From Clostridiales bacterium (GTDB taxonomy: Bacteria; Bacillota; Clostridia; Oscillospirales; Oscillospiraceae): 64,000 nt of DNA. The stretch spans positions 1 through 64,000 of the forward strand of contig DUOX01000034.1 in NCBI GenBank assembly GCA_012838665.1, given 5' to 3'. A program made the translations under genes and the position numbers. The notes beneath the pieces were generated by a model that saw only the letters and a program-made list of their open reading frames with translations, searched no databases and was not told the DNA's origin. Of the stretch, positions 42,598 through 51,066 are shown in pieces (position 1 is the first letter of the stretch; every line of letters starts with the position of its first letter).

Positions 42598-44193
42598 TCA
42601 CCGCTGCCAGGCGTCGGAAAGATGATCCAACTGCTTGGCAAATTTTATCAGTTCTTTGTTCGCCATGCCCTCGCAGGAGTAAATCACGGACATAATCCGC
42701 TCTCCGGCTGCCACCAGCCGCTCAAAGGCGGTGGGCGTCTTGGGTTTAACAGTCTTTCTGATGGGTATGCCCTCGGTAATCGTAATGGGTCTTCCCAGGA
42801 TGAGGTCAAAGCTGGTGCCGCTGTAGGGGGCAAAGGCTATGTAGTTATGTTCCTTTTCCAATGTGTTGACAAATATATCGCAGACCTCGTCCTGGCAGTG
42901 ATTTACGAATACCATTTTCGGTCTTTTCTCAAATCCCGCCAGCCAGTTGATAAGCCCAATCTTGTCCGCATGGCCACTGATTCCCGGCAGGGCGGCGATT
43001 TCCGCATTTACGGCTATGGTTTCCCCGAAGAGCTTAACGCTCTTTGCGCCGTCGTATATGATGCGGCCCAGAGTGCCTGCCGCCTGATATCCCACAAAAA
43101 GGATAAGGCTTTCCGGCCGCCAGAGATTGTGCTTTAAGTGGTGGCGTATGCGCCCTGCCTCGCACATGCCGCTGGCGGAGATAATCACCTTGGGGGTGGT
43201 GTCAACGTTGATGGCCTTGGATTCCTCTGAGGAAACGGAGATTTTCAATCCGGGGAATACCAGTGGATTTATACCCTTGAGCAGGAGGTCTGTGGTCTCC
43301 TTATCAAAATAGTGGGGGCCGGTTTGCTGGAAAATGGAGGTGGCCTCTATGGCCAGGGGGCTGTCCACATATACGGGGAAGTTACCATGGCCCCGTATCA
43401 AGCCCTTTTCTTTGATTTCCCGGATGAAGTACAGTATTTCCTGCGTGCGCCCTACGGCAAAGGAGGGGATGACAACGTTGCCGCCCCTGTCCAGGGCGCG
43501 CTGAATAAAGCCGGCCAGGGCGCCGATATAGTCCGGCCTTTCGCCGTGCAGGCGATCACCATAAGTGCCCTCAATAACCACATAGTCGGCGTCCGGAATT
43601 ATTTGCGGGTCCCGGATTATCGGCTGGTCGATGTTACCGACATCGCCGCTGAAAACAATTTTCTTAGTCTCGCCGCCCTCGGTGAGCCAGACCTCAATGC
43701 AGGCAGAGCCCAAAAGGTGCCCGATGTCCCGGAAACGGATTTCCACCCCCTCGGCTACTTTAATCATCTTATTGTAGGGGTAGGGGCGAAAGCATTTTAA
43801 GGCGCCTTCCACGTCTTCCATGGTATAAACAGGCTGATATTCTCCCGCGCCGGAACGTTTGGATTTCCGGTTGCGCCATTCTGCCTCGGACATCTGGATA
43901 TGGGCGCTGTCGCGGAGCATAATGCTGCATAAATTGTATGTGACTTCCGTAGAATATATGGTCCCTTTGAACCCGTTTTTATATAACAGGGGTATATTTC
44001 CAGAGTGGTCGATGTGGGCATGGGTGAGGAGAACGAAGTCTATAATCCCAGGGTCCACCGGCAGGGGCTGGTTTTCAAAAATGTCCTTGCCCTGCTCCAT
44101 GCCAAAGTCCACAAGGCCGTATTTTCCGCCCCCCTCAATAAGCGTACAGCTTCCCGTGACCTCGTGAGCCGCACCCAGGAATGTAAGTTTCAT
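42598..44193 (-). CDS. MBL-fold/beta-CASP RNA-processing hydrolase
   Basis: About 531 residues of the CPSF-73/RNase J-like superfamily. The metallo-beta-lactamase motif LLTHAHIDHSGNIPLL (HxHxDH, near residue 53) is followed by further ligands in RDIGHLLGS and FSGDVG. A beta-CASP insert has FAVGRTQEIL, and an RMMBL-like end has LPGISGHADKIGLINWL. Such proteins act as zinc-dependent endo- or exonucleases, probably on RNA. A C-terminal extension of about 60 residues (MANKELIKFAKQLDHL) is unassigned. ATG 44193 with GGGGG 9-13 nt upstream is preferred to GTG 44211. First gene of a five-gene minus operon. Confidence 0.88.
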   Translation of the reverse strand: MKLTFLGAAHEVTGSCTLIEGGGKYGLVDFGMEQGKDIFENQPLPVDPGIIDFVLLTHAHIDHSGNIPLLYKNGFKGTIYSTEVTYNLCSIMLRDSAHIQMSEAEWRNRKSKRSGAGEYQPVYTMEDVEGALKCFRPYPYNKMIKVAEGVEIRFRDIGHLLGSACIEVWLTEGGETKKIVFSGDVGNIDQPIIRDPQIIPDADYVVIEGTYGDRLHGERPDYIGALAGFIQRALDRGGNVVIPSFAVGRTQEILYFIREIKEKGLIRGHGNFPVYVDSPLAIEATSIFQQTGPHYFDKETTDLLLKGINPLVFPGLKISVSSEESKAINVDTTPKVIISASGMCEAGRIRHHLKHNLWRPESLILFVGYQAAGTLGRIIYDGAKSVKLFGETIAVNAEIAALPGISGHADKIGLINWLAGFEKRPKMVFVNHCQDEVCDIFVNTLEKEHNYIAFAPYSGTSFDLILGRPITITEGIPIRKTVKPKTPTAFERLVAAGERIMSVIYSCEGMANKELIKFAKQLDHLSDAWQR

Positions 44194-44267
44194 ATTCGTT
44201 TCCCCCGTCACAATTTATGTTTTTTTATTCTCATAGTATAGCATAGAATACCACAATTGGACAACGA

Positions 44268-44325: not shown

Positions 44326-44502
44326 TTATTCTCTTTCCATTTGGGTTCCGAAATAGAAGGAGATAACCATTAAAACCACATTTGTCACGTTGTCGGGGGA
44401 GATGCTGCCTTTGATTGCCAGGATCGAAAATACGGTTATGAGCGCAAGGGTAACAAGTGTTTTGACCTTAACCAGAGCGGCAAGATTGTTTATTATCTTC
44501 AT
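44326..44502 (-). CDS. Small holin-like membrane protein
   Basis: A 58-residue protein, MKIINNLAALVKVKTLVTL at the start and ISFYFGTQMERE at the end, with two hydrophobic segments (about 13-30 and 40-52) joined by the polar turn KGSISPDNV. Size and layout resemble small phage-type holins. Its ATG overlaps the amidase stop (ATGA) and AGGAGG lies inside the amidase end, so the two are translationally coupled. Together they look like a lysis pair: the membrane protein lets the amidase reach the wall. It could instead be a small membrane protein for a signal-less amidase. No phage structural genes are nearby. Confidence 0.7.
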   Translation of the reverse strand: MKIINNLAALVKVKTLVTLALITVFSILAIKGSISPDNVTNVVLMVISFYFGTQMERE

Positions 44503-45125
44503 GTGTCCTCCTTAAAAAGTCCGTTTCTGTCGCATATAACAAGTATTCTGACCATGTCATGGGACAGGTCCAAATCGTTTCCCGTGCCTATGAGACTGCC
44601 GTTTCCTATGAGTTTTTCCACAGTGGGCCTGGCCCATTGCGGAACCTCCTCCACAGTCTTATATCGCTGTTCATTGGGCTCAACAGGCTGCGCTGGCGAG
44701 GTGATATATTCGAAAGGAAAGTTTTTTCCCGGACAGGCAGTGGCGTTTAAGTCCTTATGCCCCAATACTGTGAGGCTCGGATACCTTTTCAGGATATCGG
44801 ATACCAGCCGCCGGCCCGAATCCATCTGGACCCGGGGCATTTCCTCCGTTTCAAAATTACCCTCGAAACATATGCCTATAGAGTTGTTGTTATAGTCGGC
44901 GGTGTGGCCGCCAATCCAGTTTTCAGGGCGGCCCCGGTAAACGCTCCCGTCTTTGCGCACGTAATAATGATAGGCGATTCCCGCCCAGGCCCGGGCGAGG
45001 TGCCAGTTGTGAACATCCATGGGGCTTGCCGAACTCGCGGCCGCATGATGCAGAATAAGATATGAGGTTCTGGTTCTGTTGCCGGGGTTGAACGCCCAGT
45101 TATAGTCGGGCTCCAATATAGTCAT
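44499..45125 (-). CDS. N-acetylmuramoyl-L-alanine amidase (PGRP type)
   Basis: A 208-residue Amidase_2/PGRP-type zinc amidase that cuts the bond between muramic acid and the stem peptide. Zinc-site motifs are LILHHAAASSASP (His), WIGGHTADYNNNSIGICFEG, and LGHKDLNATACPG (His, Cys). A C-terminal segment (VPQWARPTVEKLIGNGSLIG) is a small helical repeat often seen after phage-derived amidases. There is no signal peptide, in keeping with dependence on the coupled holin-like protein. Start ATG 45125 has AGGAGGG 6 nt upstream. Confidence 0.9.
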   Translation of the reverse strand: MTILEPDYNWAFNPGNRTRTSYLILHHAAASSASPMDVHNWHLARAWAGIAYHYYVRKDGSVYRGRPENWIGGHTADYNNNSIGICFEGNFETEEMPRVQMDSGRRLVSDILKRYPSLTVLGHKDLNATACPGKNFPFEYITSPAQPVEPNEQRYKTVEEVPQWARPTVEKLIGNGSLIGTGNDLDLSHDMVRILVICDRNGLFKEDT

Positions 45126-45649: not shown

Positions 45650-47161
45650 CTAAATCCCCAGATTTTCCAGCTCATTTATAATTTCCAGCTGGCGCTCGTA
45701 GAACAGCAAATCCTGATTATGGGCGAAGTATTCCTCGGAACCGTAGCGGCTGATAAAGCGGGAGGCGTATTGGTTGATGGTCAGTTCCGTTTCCAGAATA
45801 ATCATCTCCTGACTCTTGCCGAAGGTGCCGTCGCAGAAGAGATAAAGGTTCCTCATTTTGTCCCTGACGGTTTTGACCTGCTCCTTTAGCTCGGCCACAC
45901 GGCGGTCGAAGTCCGCCTTGATTTTTGAGAAAGCCTCCTTGCCGTATTCGGCACCGCTAGCGGCAAACAGTGCCTTATACTCCTCCAATACGCCGGACAC
46001 GCGGGTTAAAACATGCAGCCTGTCCAATGACAGGGTGGAGGCCCTCTTGCCCGTCTCAATCACCGCGTTGTTCCGGGAAATCTGTTCATTGAGAGCGATT
46101 ACCGCGTCGGCGACGTCATCGGTCAGCGCCTGACGGACATTTTTGAGCAGGGGAATCAGAGCGGAAATAACGTCTTCCTCCATGCAAACCCGCTTTAAAT
46201 GTACTGTCATTTCATCCAGAAGCAGGCCCAGCAAACTCAGGCGCTCGTCGAACTTTGCCTTCTTAGCGCGGGTCTTGATGTCAACGTCGGCATCGCCGTC
46301 CAAAATCCTTTCCACCTGGTAATCGGAGCGGTACTTGTTAAACAGGTCGTAATAAATAGCAAAATCCTTGGCGATTTCGGGGTTTTGAATATACTGCATC
46401 ACCAGATTCTCGGTGACGGGAAAGCCCCGGCGCTCATAAATTCGGATGACGGAGGACAGGTCTGTCCAGCCCCGGGCGGTTGCAAAGGTTTTGCCCTCCA
46501 AAGTGGACTCTATCTTGTAAAAGTTAGTCCTTTTAATGTCCAGATATGTGATAATGGCGGGACAGACGCCGGCGTTTACGGCATATTCCTTCCAGGCGTC
46601 GTAATCCGGCTCAATATCAATGCGCTTTAAACGGTCCCATGTGACAATATCGAACTCGCGCACGGAGTTGTTGTACTCGGGAGGGTTGCCTGCCGTGACC
46701 ACAATCCAGCCGTCGGGCACACGATGCCGCCCAAAGACCTTATATTGCAGGAATTGGAGCATGGCCGGCGCGAGAGTTTCCGAAACGCAGTTGATTTCAT
46801 CCAGAAAAAGAATGCCCTCCTTCAATCCGGTGTCCTGAATCATGTCATAGACGGAGGCAATTATTTCGCTCATGGTGTACTCGGTTACGCTGTATTCCCT
46901 CCCCCCGTAATTCTTCCGCATGATATAGGGCAGGCCGAGGGCGCTTTGCCGCGTATGGTGGCCCATGGAATAGCTGACAAGTCCCACACCAAGCTCCTGG
47001 GCGATCTGCTCCATAATGGTGGTTTTTCCAATACCCGGCGGTCCCACCAGAAAGATCGGCCTCTGCTTTTCAATGGGAATTTCATACTCGTCAAATTCAT
47101 TTTTGGTGAAGTATGCGAAAATGGCGTTTCGTATTTCTTCCTTTGCATCTTTAATGTTCAT
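45650..47161 (-). CDS. MoxR-type AAA+ ATPase
   Basis: A 503-residue AAA+ protein. Walker A is VGPPGIGKTT (residues 39-48), Walker B ILFLDEINCV (117-126) and sensor 1 VVTAGNPPEYNNSVREFD (155-172), the pattern of MoxR/YeaC-like ATPases. A helical C-terminal half (about 290-500, coiled-coil stretch at RRVAELKEQVKTVRDKM) is unusually long for MoxR. MoxR proteins act as chaperones with VWA partners; here a VWA-like protein is encoded two genes upstream with an LRR protein between. RBS GGAGGAACACAGT precedes ATG 47161. Last gene of the three-gene unit. Confidence 0.85.
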   Translation of the reverse strand: MNIKDAKEEIRNAIFAYFTKNEFDEYEIPIEKQRPIFLVGPPGIGKTTIMEQIAQELGVGLVSYSMGHHTRQSALGLPYIMRKNYGGREYSVTEYTMSEIIASVYDMIQDTGLKEGILFLDEINCVSETLAPAMLQFLQYKVFGRHRVPDGWIVVTAGNPPEYNNSVREFDIVTWDRLKRIDIEPDYDAWKEYAVNAGVCPAIITYLDIKRTNFYKIESTLEGKTFATARGWTDLSSVIRIYERRGFPVTENLVMQYIQNPEIAKDFAIYYDLFNKYRSDYQVERILDGDADVDIKTRAKKAKFDERLSLLGLLLDEMTVHLKRVCMEEDVISALIPLLKNVRQALTDDVADAVIALNEQISRNNAVIETGKRASTLSLDRLHVLTRVSGVLEEYKALFAASGAEYGKEAFSKIKADFDRRVAELKEQVKTVRDKMRNLYLFCDGTFGKSQEMIILETELTINQYASRFISRYGSEEYFAHNQDLLFYERQLEIINELENLGI

Positions 47162-47188
47162 ACTGTGTTCCTCCGCTTATCTTTCCGG

Positions 47189-48721
47189 TTACAGCGATAA
47201 ATCAAACTGCTCGAACCGTAAATCAATCATTTGGTCCGGATTCTTTGGAGAAAAAGTCTCCTTCTGGTAATCCAGTAGCGCGGCGGATGCCGCAGTGTAT
47301 CCCCCGGCGGAAGCTATGGCCAGTAAGTTTTCTATATCGTTCATCTTAATCATCCGATGGTCGGTCATCCAGCGGAGAAATTCCATATCCGTCATCATTT
47401 CCCTGTGGAACAAATCCAAATGATTGCGGATATACTCCATGTAACCTTCCCTAATCCGGGTTTCAACCATGATTCCGTCTATATCAGCCCGGATAAAGCC
47501 GATTGCGGCGTAGCGCCTGCCCATATTTGAACGGATGTCGGAAACATCCCTTGTGGTTATAAATGGAATGGTGGTATGATCGGCGCTCCTGCACTCAGGG
47601 TCGTGGGGGTTGACAAACCAGCGCAGGTCATGGGACATGCCCTGCGGCAGCTTAATCCACAACAGGGCGCTGCATTTATGAAAGGCTCCTGCGCCAATAT
47701 GCTTAACATTGTCCGGAATTGCCATGCTGGTCAGCCTGTTACAGCCTTCAAATACCGCCTCTCCCAGCTCCGTCAGGCTTCCGGGTAAATCAAGCTGCGT
47801 GATTTTTCCGCAGCGGCTGAAGGCTCTGTCTCCCGTGCGCTGCAAACCCTCCGGGAAAGTAATCTCCTCCAGGTTATTTGCGCAGGCGAAGGCCTCAAAG
47901 TCGATTTCCGTGACCGTTTTGGGAACTGTAACTCTTGTCAACCCGTTGGGGCAGTAGACCAGCCGCGCTCCGTCCCTGCTGCAGAGCAGCCCGTCTATTT
48001 CGCGATAATTCTCATTGCCCGGCGCCACATGAATTCGCACCAGATTATAACATTCCAGAAAAGCGCCTTTGTCAACTTCCGTCACCGTCTCCGACAGGGT
48101 TACATCCGTAAGTTTCGCGCAGCCGTAGAACACGCCTCTTTCAAGAGTCTCCACCCCCTGTGGAATGGTGACATGAGTCAGGCTCTGGCATCTGGAAAAG
48201 GCGCTGCGCTCCATTTTCTTCAGACCTCTGGCTACCGGCAGCCGGGTCAGGCCGCAGTCGAAAAATGAAAACTCGCCTATGCTGGTTACGCTGTCGGGCA
48301 GAGCCAGTTCCGCCAAACTCCGGCAGGAGGCAAAGGCGCTGCGGTTTATGCGCACAAGTCCCTCAGGCAGGGTTAAATCGCGTAGGCTTTGACAGCCGGA
48401 GAATGCGTTTTCTTCAATTTCAGTAAGCCCTTTAAGCAACGACAGGCTGCTTAGCTCTCTGCAGCCGTAAAAGGCGCTGCCGCCGATTTTCTTCATAGTT
48501 TTGGGGAATTTCACCTTTGACAGCCTTCCACAGCCGTAAAAGGCCTCCGTGCCGATTTCCTCCAGACTTTCGGGCAATTCCAGTTCAATCAAAGTCATGC
48601 ATCCGGCGAAGGCCCGCTGGCCGATTGCGGCAACCCCTTCCGGAACCGCCACAAGACCGCCGTCCCCCTTATATTTCAATAAGACGTTTTTTTCAATCAG
48701 AAAATCATTGTTGTTTATCAT
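47189..48721 (-). CDS. BspA-type leucine-rich repeat protein
   Basis: About 510 residues. Residues 25-385 hold about 13 tandem BspA-type repeats of roughly 23 residues, each with a consensus such as LTEIEENAFSGCQSLRDLTL (xF-x-x-C, then L-x-x-L-x-L-P). One repeat is replaced by an insert (ENYREIDGLLCSRDGARLVY). The C-terminal 120 residues are a separate helical domain (YMEYIRNHLDLFHREMMTDM). There is no signal peptide or anchor, so unlike most BspA proteins it is probably cytoplasmic and a recognition or scaffold partner of the ATPase. ATG 48721 is preferred to ATG 48733; it overlaps the upstream gene by 17 nt. Confidence 0.85.
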   Translation of the reverse strand: MINNNDFLIEKNVLLKYKGDGGLVAVPEGVAAIGQRAFAGCMTLIELELPESLEEIGTEAFYGCGRLSKVKFPKTMKKIGGSAFYGCRELSSLSLLKGLTEIEENAFSGCQSLRDLTLPEGLVRINRSAFASCRSLAELALPDSVTSIGEFSFFDCGLTRLPVARGLKKMERSAFSRCQSLTHVTIPQGVETLERGVFYGCAKLTDVTLSETVTEVDKGAFLECYNLVRIHVAPGNENYREIDGLLCSRDGARLVYCPNGLTRVTVPKTVTEIDFEAFACANNLEEITFPEGLQRTGDRAFSRCGKITQLDLPGSLTELGEAVFEGCNRLTSMAIPDNVKHIGAGAFHKCSALLWIKLPQGMSHDLRWFVNPHDPECRSADHTTIPFITTRDVSDIRSNMGRRYAAIGFIRADIDGIMVETRIREGYMEYIRNHLDLFHREMMTDMEFLRWMTDHRMIKMNDIENLLAIASAGGYTAASAALLDYQKETFSPKNPDQMIDLRFEQFDLSL

Positions 48722-50012
48722 AATCAATCTCATCCCTTTGCAGCACTATACGAATTGCCCACGGGGGCACATCAGGCTTGCCGTAATCGTCATTTACAAA
48801 AACAAACACCGCATCGTAATTGGGCTTTGCCCGCGGAAACGCGCCCGCTCCATCGGTCAGATAGATTAAGCCCCTGAGATTGCGAAACTCGCCCCTTTGC
48901 AGCATCCCATCCGCATGGATAAAAGCCGGCCTGAAATCAGTTTCGTCCCTGATTTTCAAGCGCTGCAGGAGAGTTTCCAATTCCGTCTCATCCCGAATAT
49001 GTACATATTCCGCGTTCGCACCGTCGCACAGTAGAAAATGCAGGCGGACTTGCGATTTGGGGCTGTCAGTGGCACGCAAAACTTCATAGGTTTTTCTTAT
49101 AAACCCCCGTACCTCTTTCAGGGAGAGCAATCCCGAAAACTGCAGGGCAACAACAAATTCGCGGATATTTTTTATATCCCTGTATTCCAGTGGCTCAATC
49201 AGCGGCATGTTTTCATATAACCGCATGCCATAGGTATAGAAAATATAATCAAACTCATCCGGATTGGTCCTCATCGGTTCGCCCCGGGTGGCGAATTTCC
49301 GCAAAAAACCGGCGTAGTCATAGGTTTCCCTGTTGACCTCCCGCAGGTTCTGCATAATGGCCTCCGCCTTGTCTCCCTGCCGCCGGGCGAAAGTCTCCAT
49401 GTCAACCTGCATTCGCCTGGCAATCTCTTGCCAATCTTCCAGACCGGTCCGCTGGGTCTGGATTGTCTCCCCGTTTTCATACCACAGGTCATGTCCGTCG
49501 GCAAAAAAAAGCCGTCTCCATGTTTCGTATTCGGTCTCTCCCAACGGATGCGTGAGCAGCCAGCGGTATATTTTTCCCGCAGTCAGCATGCCGGCCTGTC
49601 TTTTCAGTTTTTCTGTTATATCCCGCTGTTTTTGTTCCCTTTCCACAGTTACGGCCATCAGCTTGAGCTGGGAAATGGCATGCTCCAGCGCAATATCACA
49701 GGACAAATCCCAAAGTTTTCGGTCCACATCCTTATTGTGATACATATGCTGGAAAACGCAGTGGAGGACAAGATGAAGATACTCCCGTGCAGCCAACGTG
49801 CGCTCGTCTCGATAGCCGCGCAGAACATGGAGAGTATCGTAGTACATGGCCTGCCCGTCGGTGGCAAGTCCGATATTCTCCCTAAACTCAGGCATAAACT
49901 GGCTCAAAGCCACGTCCAGAAACCGCAGGTTGACCAAAAGGGTATTGCGTGCCAGGGTCAGCACGTCCAAAGCCAATGCGTCGGCCTTATTTTTTGCTTG
50001 GGGTTCATTCAT
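48705..50012 (-). CDS. DUF2201/VWA-like protein with degenerate metal sites
   Basis: About 435 residues. The N-terminal part aligns by eye with the DUF2201 putative metallopeptidase domain: the usual HExxH is HLVLH (residues ~81-85) so the catalytic Glu is Leu, followed by KLWDLSCDIALEHAI. The C-terminal part has the VWA-like end LLCDGANAEY, ETDFRPAFIHADG and LRGLIYLTDGAGAFP. Where the MIDAS DxSxS is expected it reads QFSGLLS. Both sites therefore look inactive, suggesting an adaptor for the MoxR ATPase. GGGAG lies 8 nt before ATG 50012. A TATAAT at 50052-50047 with a poor -35 may be the promoter. First gene of the unit. Confidence 0.75.
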   Translation of the reverse strand: MNEPQAKNKADALALDVLTLARNTLLVNLRFLDVALSQFMPEFRENIGLATDGQAMYYDTLHVLRGYRDERTLAAREYLHLVLHCVFQHMYHNKDVDRKLWDLSCDIALEHAISQLKLMAVTVEREQKQRDITEKLKRQAGMLTAGKIYRWLLTHPLGETEYETWRRLFFADGHDLWYENGETIQTQRTGLEDWQEIARRMQVDMETFARRQGDKAEAIMQNLREVNRETYDYAGFLRKFATRGEPMRTNPDEFDYIFYTYGMRLYENMPLIEPLEYRDIKNIREFVVALQFSGLLSLKEVRGFIRKTYEVLRATDSPKSQVRLHFLLCDGANAEYVHIRDETELETLLQRLKIRDETDFRPAFIHADGMLQRGEFRNLRGLIYLTDGAGAFPRAKPNYDAVFVFVNDDYGKPDVPPWAIRIVLQRDEIDYDKQQ

Positions 50013-50118
50013 TAGGCATACTCCCATTTGGTGGAATTTAAGACTTATTATAACATAAAAGGCGAAATTTGTATGATAAAATATTTTGTTAATTGAAATA
50101 ATTGCAGGATTATGAAAT

Positions 50119-50175: not shown

Positions 50176-51066
50176 TTATTCCTGTAGCCTGTTACAGTCG
50201 TATACGATTCCTACGCCGCCAAATTCCAAGCCATAAAGCTTGCCCTTGGGCGTGTCTTTGCCGGCGCCGCCGTCACCGGGGCGGGGCATTCTCCGGTCAT
50301 AGACCAGCTCGCCGTTGGGGCCGGGGGGCAAATCCCTGCGTTTCATCGGCACGGGCTCGAAAGGCTCGCCGTAATTTCCCTTTAAGATTTCCTTAGCACA
50401 GGCGTAGTACCTGTCCAGATAATCCGCATCCAATTCGCCGCCGCCGGCAAACATGCAGTCAAACTCATGGCGATGGGCCATAAGCTTTTCCAGATAGCCG
50501 TGGAATACGGGCAGCGGCACCTTCAGGACCTTGCCCATGGGCATAAGCTCGTCGCCAATGAATAAAATCCGCTCCTTGCGATCCAGAATTGCTATACCAT
50601 CGGGAGTATGGTCGCCAATCCAGAAAAATTCCAGCGTCCGGCTGCCCAAATCATATGTGTCGCCATCGAAAACTGCCACGAATTCATAATCCCGAGGGAA
50701 ATGTATTCCCTCAAAGCTGGCATAGGGGATGGTGGCGTAATCAAAGGCGTGAGGGTGCATATAGGCCTTTTCAAAGTAGGAGTTGTTGGCGGTGTGGTCA
50801 AAGTGATGGTGGGTGTTGATAACGTTCCGAACCGGCCTGTCGGTCAGGGTCTGCAGGAATTCACGAATATTGCCCGCGCCGTAGCCGGTGTCAATGGCCA
50901 CCGCCTCCTTATCACCCGCCACCAGATAGGAAAAATCGCCTGAGGACAGTATTTTCCAGGTGTTTGGAGCTATTTCCTCCGCCTGGAAGAAAGGCTCGTC
51001 CATGGGTGAATACGTTCCGTCCGGGTTTAGGATTAGAATATCACGCTTGCAGGAAAAATCTATCAC
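50176..51066 (-). CDS. MBL-fold metallo-hydrolase
   Basis: A 296-residue metallo-beta-lactamase-fold enzyme with the zinc motif NTHHHFDHTANN (HxHxDH, near residue 85), a later ligand in WIGDHTPDG, and Asp in LFIGDELMPMG. It resembles lactonase/glyoxalase-type hydrolases. No signal peptide. It is the last gene of a run that starts with an oligopeptide-type ABC transporter and includes a ceramidase-like protein and an alpha/beta hydrolase, so it may act on an imported ester, lactone or amide. GTG 51066 with AGAGGATG about 9 nt upstream is the best start. The Pro/Gly-rich C-terminus (DLPPGPNGELVYDRRMPRPG) is unusual for the fold. Confidence 0.82.
   Translation of the reverse strand: MIDFSCKRDILILNPDGTYSPMDEPFFQAEEIAPNTWKILSSGDFSYLVAGDKEAVAIDTGYGAGNIREFLQTLTDRPVRNVINTHHHFDHTANNSYFEKAYMHPHAFDYATIPYASFEGIHFPRDYEFVAVFDGDTYDLGSRTLEFFWIGDHTPDGIAILDRKERILFIGDELMPMGKVLKVPLPVFHGYLEKLMAHRHEFDCMFAGGGELDADYLDRYYACAKEILKGNYGEPFEPVPMKRRDLPPGPNGELVYDRRMPRPGDGGAGKDTPKGKLYGLEFGGVGIVYDCNRLQE

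Follow-up and report, generated by a model that had tools for sequence, protein, structure and literature searches.

A conserved MoxR, VWA and LRR gene unit in Clostridia with a shared helical module and, in one clade, a degenerate VWA metal site

Two kinds of described system come close to the one reported here. The first is the NorQ/NorD pair of a MoxR ATPase and a VWA protein, for which one account describes a finger of the VWA protein that enters the MoxR pore and a C-terminus that contacts the ATPase, and in which MIDAS and linker are proposed to act together (PMC13036017). NorD variants with the MIDAS substitutions T534V and D562N keep NorQ binding and leave cNOR inactive, according to the accessible sections of PMC9976466, and loss of the MIDAS need therefore not uncouple the motor. 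The second kind comprises the MoxR-vWA ternary systems (VMAP, iSTAND, FtsH and beta-propeller), to which iSTAND2 and TERNS3 were added as further third components (PMC8195603, in the portion available). Some vWA domains of the FtsH and beta-propeller ternary systems are described, in part of PMC7159879, as having no MIDAS aspartates.

Here, we analysed a clostridial locus within a stretch of 64,000 nucleotides, which we refer to as the window. Judged from the open reading frames of the window, three genes follow each other on the minus strand in the order VWA-like, LRR and MoxR: a gene for a VWA-like (DUF2201-type) protein (48705..50012; the longest ORF starts at 50027 and codes for 440 aa), a gene for an LRR protein, the third component (47189..48733; 514 aa, or 510 aa from 48721), and a gene for a MoxR-type AAA+ ATPase (45650..47161; 503 aa). 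Taken from the longest-ORF starts 50027 and 48733, the first two genes overlap by 29 nt. The internal starts at 50012 and 48721 reduce this overlap to 17 nt and have, as judged by eye, the better purine-rich sites upstream; start 50012 also agrees with the start of most homologues in our alignment (A1). The LRR and MoxR genes are 27 nt apart, and the tight spacing of a 17-nt overlap and a 27-nt gap, as first read from the sequence alone, is thus reproduced with the internal starts. By eye, two ORFs with HxHxDH motifs that look like metallo-beta-lactamase folds (42598-44211 and 50176-51066) flank the region, and a peptidoglycan amidase-like ORF (44499-45125) lies immediately downstream of the unit.

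The unit shares with NorQ/NorD the MoxR ATPase and the VWA protein, but differs from it by a linked third gene, the module-bearing LRR gene, by a DUF2201_N-like N-terminal domain with invariant histidines and by the degenerate MIDAS of the window protein. With the ternary systems it shares the set of MoxR, vWA and third component, and the window VWA protein resembles some of their FtsH and beta-propeller vWA domains in its defective MIDAS. It differs from them in that its third components carry LRRs, DUF6273, ankyrin repeats or DUF4132 with a helical module and show no effector domain, and in that it occurs in Clostridia, whereas the known ones are found mainly in multicellular bacteria as far as the available parts of their descriptions go. 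By Pfam, no beta-propeller family was found on the window VWA protein, and LRR families only on the window third protein, which is the extent of the comparison with the VMAP, iSTAND and TERNS3 third components. No description of a MoxR-VWA-LRR unit was found in searches of a library of open-access papers, and in PMC7159879 the term 'LRR' occurs a single time, in the reference list.

The ATPase has an intact Walker A (GPPGIGKT, 47021..47044, minus strand) and Walker B (ILFLDEI, 46793..46813, minus strand); among its relatives, the Walker A pattern is present in 137/138 and the Walker B pattern in 138/138 sequences. Pfam assigns the protein to AAA/AAA_5. The AAA_5 (dynein-related) score of 38.3 bits, which is above the cut-off, and the presence of midasin among the PDB matches point to the MoxR clade and its predicted helix-2 insert, and the bpMoxR profile PF20030 stays below its cut-off (22.5 versus 27 bits).

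A VWA fold had been proposed for the 440-residue protein, and it is backed by a structure model with a mean pLDDT of 90.2, whose top Foldseek match in the PDB is the VWA domain of NorD bound to NorQ (9qh6_G, E 8e-5). The endpoints of a structural match to NorD (model residues 237-437 to NorD 391-628, with the NorD finger at 403-448) would place the conserved segment in front of the VWA domain, residues 248-286 (49170..49286, minus strand), where NorD has its finger. This segment has the highest mean conservation among the parts compared (0.72), followed by the C-terminal motif (0.69), the VWA domain (0.66), the N-terminal part (0.52) and the middle (0.47), and by analogy with the NorD finger, as far as the available part of PMC13036017 describes it, it is a candidate for insertion into the MoxR pore.

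Most aligned relatives of the VWA-like protein match the DUF2201 family, with PF13203 found in 70 and PF09967 in 65 of the 74. The window protein stands apart from this family in that its sole Pfam match, DUF2201_N (PF13203), is sub-threshold (15.8 versus a cut-off of 23.2 bits) and in that it has neither the HExxH glutamate nor a MIDAS. HExxH is the motif expected of a DUF2201 putative metallopeptidase. The strings HLVLH and QFSGL, which the sequence-only reading had reported in place of HExxH and the MIDAS, are indeed present, and an intact HExxH or MIDAS was not seen at any other position of the alignment. The conclusion that both metal sites are lost stands for the MIDAS and fails for the N-terminal site. 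In HLVLHCVFQH (49746..49775, minus strand), the histidines H85, H89 and H94 are kept and may bind metal, and they are identical in 171/171 aligned locus sequences, as are the candidate ligands D111 (codon 49695-49697) and D177; H179 of the D177-x-H179 pair (49491..49499, minus strand) is found in 170, and E115 is kept in 95% of these sequences (counts include the window and were made without deduplication). The second position of HExxH is a glutamate in 2 of 234 sequences and another residue in 232, so that the missing glutamate is a feature of the family and not a loss in the window gene. The N-terminal metal site is thus likely kept, with the catalytic glutamate missing, which would make the domain a putative metal binder rather than a peptidase. 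It had also been suggested that the VWA protein is a dead scaffold, a view at odds with the invariant ligand set and with the conservation of the segment before the VWA domain and of the C-terminus, the putative parts for coupling to MoxR.

The loss of the MIDAS has a different history. The motif DxSxS-T-D is degenerate in the window protein, where QFSGL (residues 296-300; 49128..49142, minus strand) replaces DxSxS and T363 and D392 are retained. Among 234 sequences, the pattern D-x-[ST]-x-S is present in 182 and fails in 52. In a quick maximum-likelihood tree of 165 sequences (189 taken from the 234, then filtered at 90% identity), 49 failing sequences form one side of a single branch with an SH-aLRT of 100 and the other 116 all have the pattern; the branch is also recovered after removal of the MIDAS columns. 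MIDAS degeneration is hence a real clade trait, confined to the window's own clade among the sequences examined. Most of the 49 members retain the first MIDAS aspartate (DLCGL, DLSGL), unlike the window, where it is gone too, and one member (P0048) has DTTET at this position and may still work. The linker is shorter in the clade too: the stretch W182-W199 has a median length of 13 residues versus 41 outside and is shorter than 25 residues in 41/49 versus 23/116 sequences, and the G-x-G-G-T loop is changed as well. Owing to the single origin of the clade, these losses do not count as independent events. The shortening of the linker agrees with, and does not prove, the joint action of MIDAS and linker proposed in the available part of PMC13036017. 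Since its origin the clade has diverged into many lineages with the N-terminal ligands retained, and in the window's branch the VWA protein persists despite a degraded metal-adhesion motif. Genomic context in the clade comes from two records, that of the window and L052 (the same as L112); in the latter, the VWA gene is followed by an LRR-module gene and the contig ends 779 bases further on.

A protein search with the VWA-like protein gave 4178 relatives among 7998 scored candidates, of which 120 were listed. A genome scan gave 581 loci; we used the best 80, ranked by their similarity to the window, and these are mostly labelled as uncultured Clostridia of animal guts, with cultured Pseudoflavonifractor or Flavonifractor in a few cases. 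Extra stretches, picked by any VWA match, came from family and order genome samples. With profiles built in this analysis and loci of 95% identity dropped, 155 VWA loci remained. At 80 of these loci at least 6 kb were available on each side (the window, with 5973 bases on one side, is outside this full-flank set). A same-strand MoxR gene no more than 6 kb away was found at 73/80, a module or LRR gene at 69/80 and both at 63/80, which bears out the proposal of a conserved three-gene unit; for the subset from the genome samples the values are 48/52, 44/52 and 41/52. The 20 control stretches, drawn from genomes in these samples, contained no VWA, MoxR, LRR or module match and one match each to DUF6273 and DUF4132. 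Linkage of the three genes across Clostridia is therefore far above chance. Within 8 kb, VWA and MoxR occur together at 131/155 loci, with one to six third components at 105 of them and none at 26. The commonest orders are third-VWA-MoxR (48), VWA-MoxR (24), VWA-MoxR-third (17) and VWA-third-MoxR (14), while MoxR lies on the strand of the VWA gene in 131/131 and the third component in 191/196 cases; gene order varies, strand hardly. Two loci on a more distant branch (L213, L214) have MoxR-first VWA pairs, that is in reversed order, and no third component.

The VWA gene is patchily distributed, being present in 31/200 and 68/400 same-family, 45/394 same-order and 9/329 same-phylum genomes (own genome included). 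Of the 200 genomes sampled from the family, 24 have VWA together with the module, 7 have VWA only, 3 the module only and 166 neither (Fisher p 1e-21, a co-occurrence that is not fully independent because the module profile includes rows from some of those genomes). The two scans were taken as covering the same 200 genomes, as identifiers and totals agree where listed. The three module-only genomes have module matches of E 1e-5 to 3e-4, and 36/40 module matches lie on a VWA contig. In the phylum sample (n=329), the module is present in 5 genomes, 4 of them with the VWA gene within ~6 kb (own genome counted). These data bear on a hitchhiker scenario for the LRR gene, in which a mobile gene of the BspA type would sit at the locus by chance. 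BspA-type genes are common in relatives, and LRR_5 matches were found in 30/30 other VWA-carrying genomes searched (1 to 57 apiece, including away from the unit), so that LRRs as such are not specific. Nevertheless, the linkage and one-strand arrangement of VWA, MoxR and third component, the co-occurrence of module and VWA across genomes, and the finding that a search of the 98%-complete genome gave no LRR_5 gene besides that of the window make a chance position very improbable.

What marks the third component is an ~85-residue helical module and not the LRR. In the window, the LRR protein had been described as cytoplasmic-looking with about 13 repeats, and this holds: it matches LRR_5 (E=6.5e-82, Pfam), its BspA-type region (47636..48658, minus strand) contains 13 repeat motifs by LRR_5 match and motif count, and a simple Kyte-Doolittle scan gave no hydrophobic N-terminus. 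It thus shares the LRR_5 repeat with secreted BspA-type LRR proteins but differs from them by the lack of such an N-terminus and by fusion to the module, which spans residues 410-492 by profile (47258..47506, minus strand). The modelled C-terminal domain (residues 385-514; 47192-47581, minus strand) is all helical with a mean pLDDT of 90.8, and a clear structural match to this model was not found. An iterated module profile matched 119 ORFs at 63/81 loci. The module may precede, interrupt or follow the LRRs, and also occurs in LRR-less proteins; a hydrophobic N-terminus is predicted in 2/207 module proteins. Of the module proteins, 184 are distinct; LRRs occur in 170 of them, DUF4132 in 15 and DUF6273 in 4 (overlapping), and 8 have none of these, one of which bears ankyrin repeats. 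Module matches within DUF4132 proteins are often partial; such proteins lie near some loci (for example L251:9918-14201, L049:3763-5832 and L031:10787-12307), suggesting that DUF4132 is linked to MoxR-VWA systems. A Leptospira LRR protein with WGR and DUF4132 has been described (PMC11674859). DUF6273 proteins adjoin MoxR-VWA genes at five loci (L063:9333-10838, L075:11001-12770, L059:4423-5709, L073:5736-8384 and L011:6520-9597); four contain the module, two also have LRRs, one of the latter also DUF4132, and the L059 protein has DUF6273 alone and no module. In the available part of PMC10743442, DUF6273 is described as resembling C-type lectin domains and as a DGR target in phages. At L023, L024, L033, L034 and L042, 3-5 tandem module-LRR genes, with the module preceding the LRRs, lie behind a single VWA gene.

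These swaps among LRR, DUF6273 (C-type-lectin-like), ankyrin and DUF4132 fit the earlier suggestion that the LRR gives specificity. They can also be read differently, with the LRR/module proteins as clients that act elsewhere and MoxR-VWA as their dedicated assembly or maturation chaperone, comparable to NorQD for cNOR. MoxR-vWA pairs mostly mature one encoded partner, as far as the accessible parts of PMC9976466 and PMC3893208 go, and a partner fold that varies around a common single module is what a chaperone handle would look like. On the other hand, 2 to 6 third components per MoxR-VWA pair, found at 23/131 loci, fit adaptors at least equally, and no obvious enzyme domain was found in the third components scanned; we regard the client reading as rather unlikely.

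A role in conflict had been put forward as well, and would here mean a defence system of the MoxR-vWA ternary type with the LRR as an invader sensor. Known ternary systems, whose third component is variable, are interpreted as conflict systems in the portions of PMC7159879 and PMC8195603 available, the occurrence in 68/400 family and 45/394 order genomes is patchy, and LRR and C-lectin-like DUF6273, the phage DGR target of PMC10743442 (available part), are receptor-type folds. However, no effector domain was found by Pfam on the 3 window proteins, 74 VWA relatives or 20 third-component or neighbouring proteins. PADLOC matched 132/262 flank ORFs (28 loci) and 127/258 control ORFs (20 stretches), raw counts that give no clear enrichment. 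The models matched number 22 on flanks versus 10 in controls, with generic ones shared (mad3 7 versus 5, mad8 4 versus 3), and the excess on flanks is made up of models that count one or two members each, several of which share a name. The flanking genes are ordinary by Pfam, and the window proteins themselves give only weak P-loop PADLOC matches. Mean identity is 64% for the LRR part, 62% for the module, 79% for VWA and 82% for MoxR (52 of 80 closest pairs); the LRR part has thus diverged about as far as the module and does not stand out as variable. A conflict role is so far unsupported by these data, and we consider it unlikely.

We propose, with a probability of roughly one in two, that the unit is a NorQ/NorD-like, ATP-driven remodelling machine whose recognition adaptor can be exchanged, which is the best reading of the data. 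In this reading, the MoxR, VWA and LRR products would form a complex in which the LRR protein selects the client and the VWA protein couples it to the MoxR ring by putting its putative finger into the pore, in the way described for NorD and NorQ. The helical module may serve as the docking handle, and LRRs, DUF6273, ankyrin repeats or DUF4132 as interchangeable recognition parts. The clade of the window would have abandoned the MIDAS contact along with most of the low-complexity linker, and client contact there would rest on module and LRR. One might speculate further, and this bolder version is less likely than not, that commensal Clostridia have a cytoplasmic, ATP-driven pattern-recognition machine in which one MoxR-VWA motor serves LRR or C-lectin-like receptors that are interchangeable and in some cases tandem, by way of a common helical docking module, much as in the logic of AAA+ adaptors or of NLR-type proteins, and that one lineage has been rebuilt on a pseudo-VWA with the LRR arm replacing the metal-dependent client contact.

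MoxR-VWA motors are widespread, but little is known of the way in which they find clients. In this family, the recognition domain is swapped while a short module and the motor are retained, which makes the docking contact directly testable, and the MIDAS-degenerate clade provides a natural experiment on the roles of MIDAS and linker in MoxR-VWA motors.
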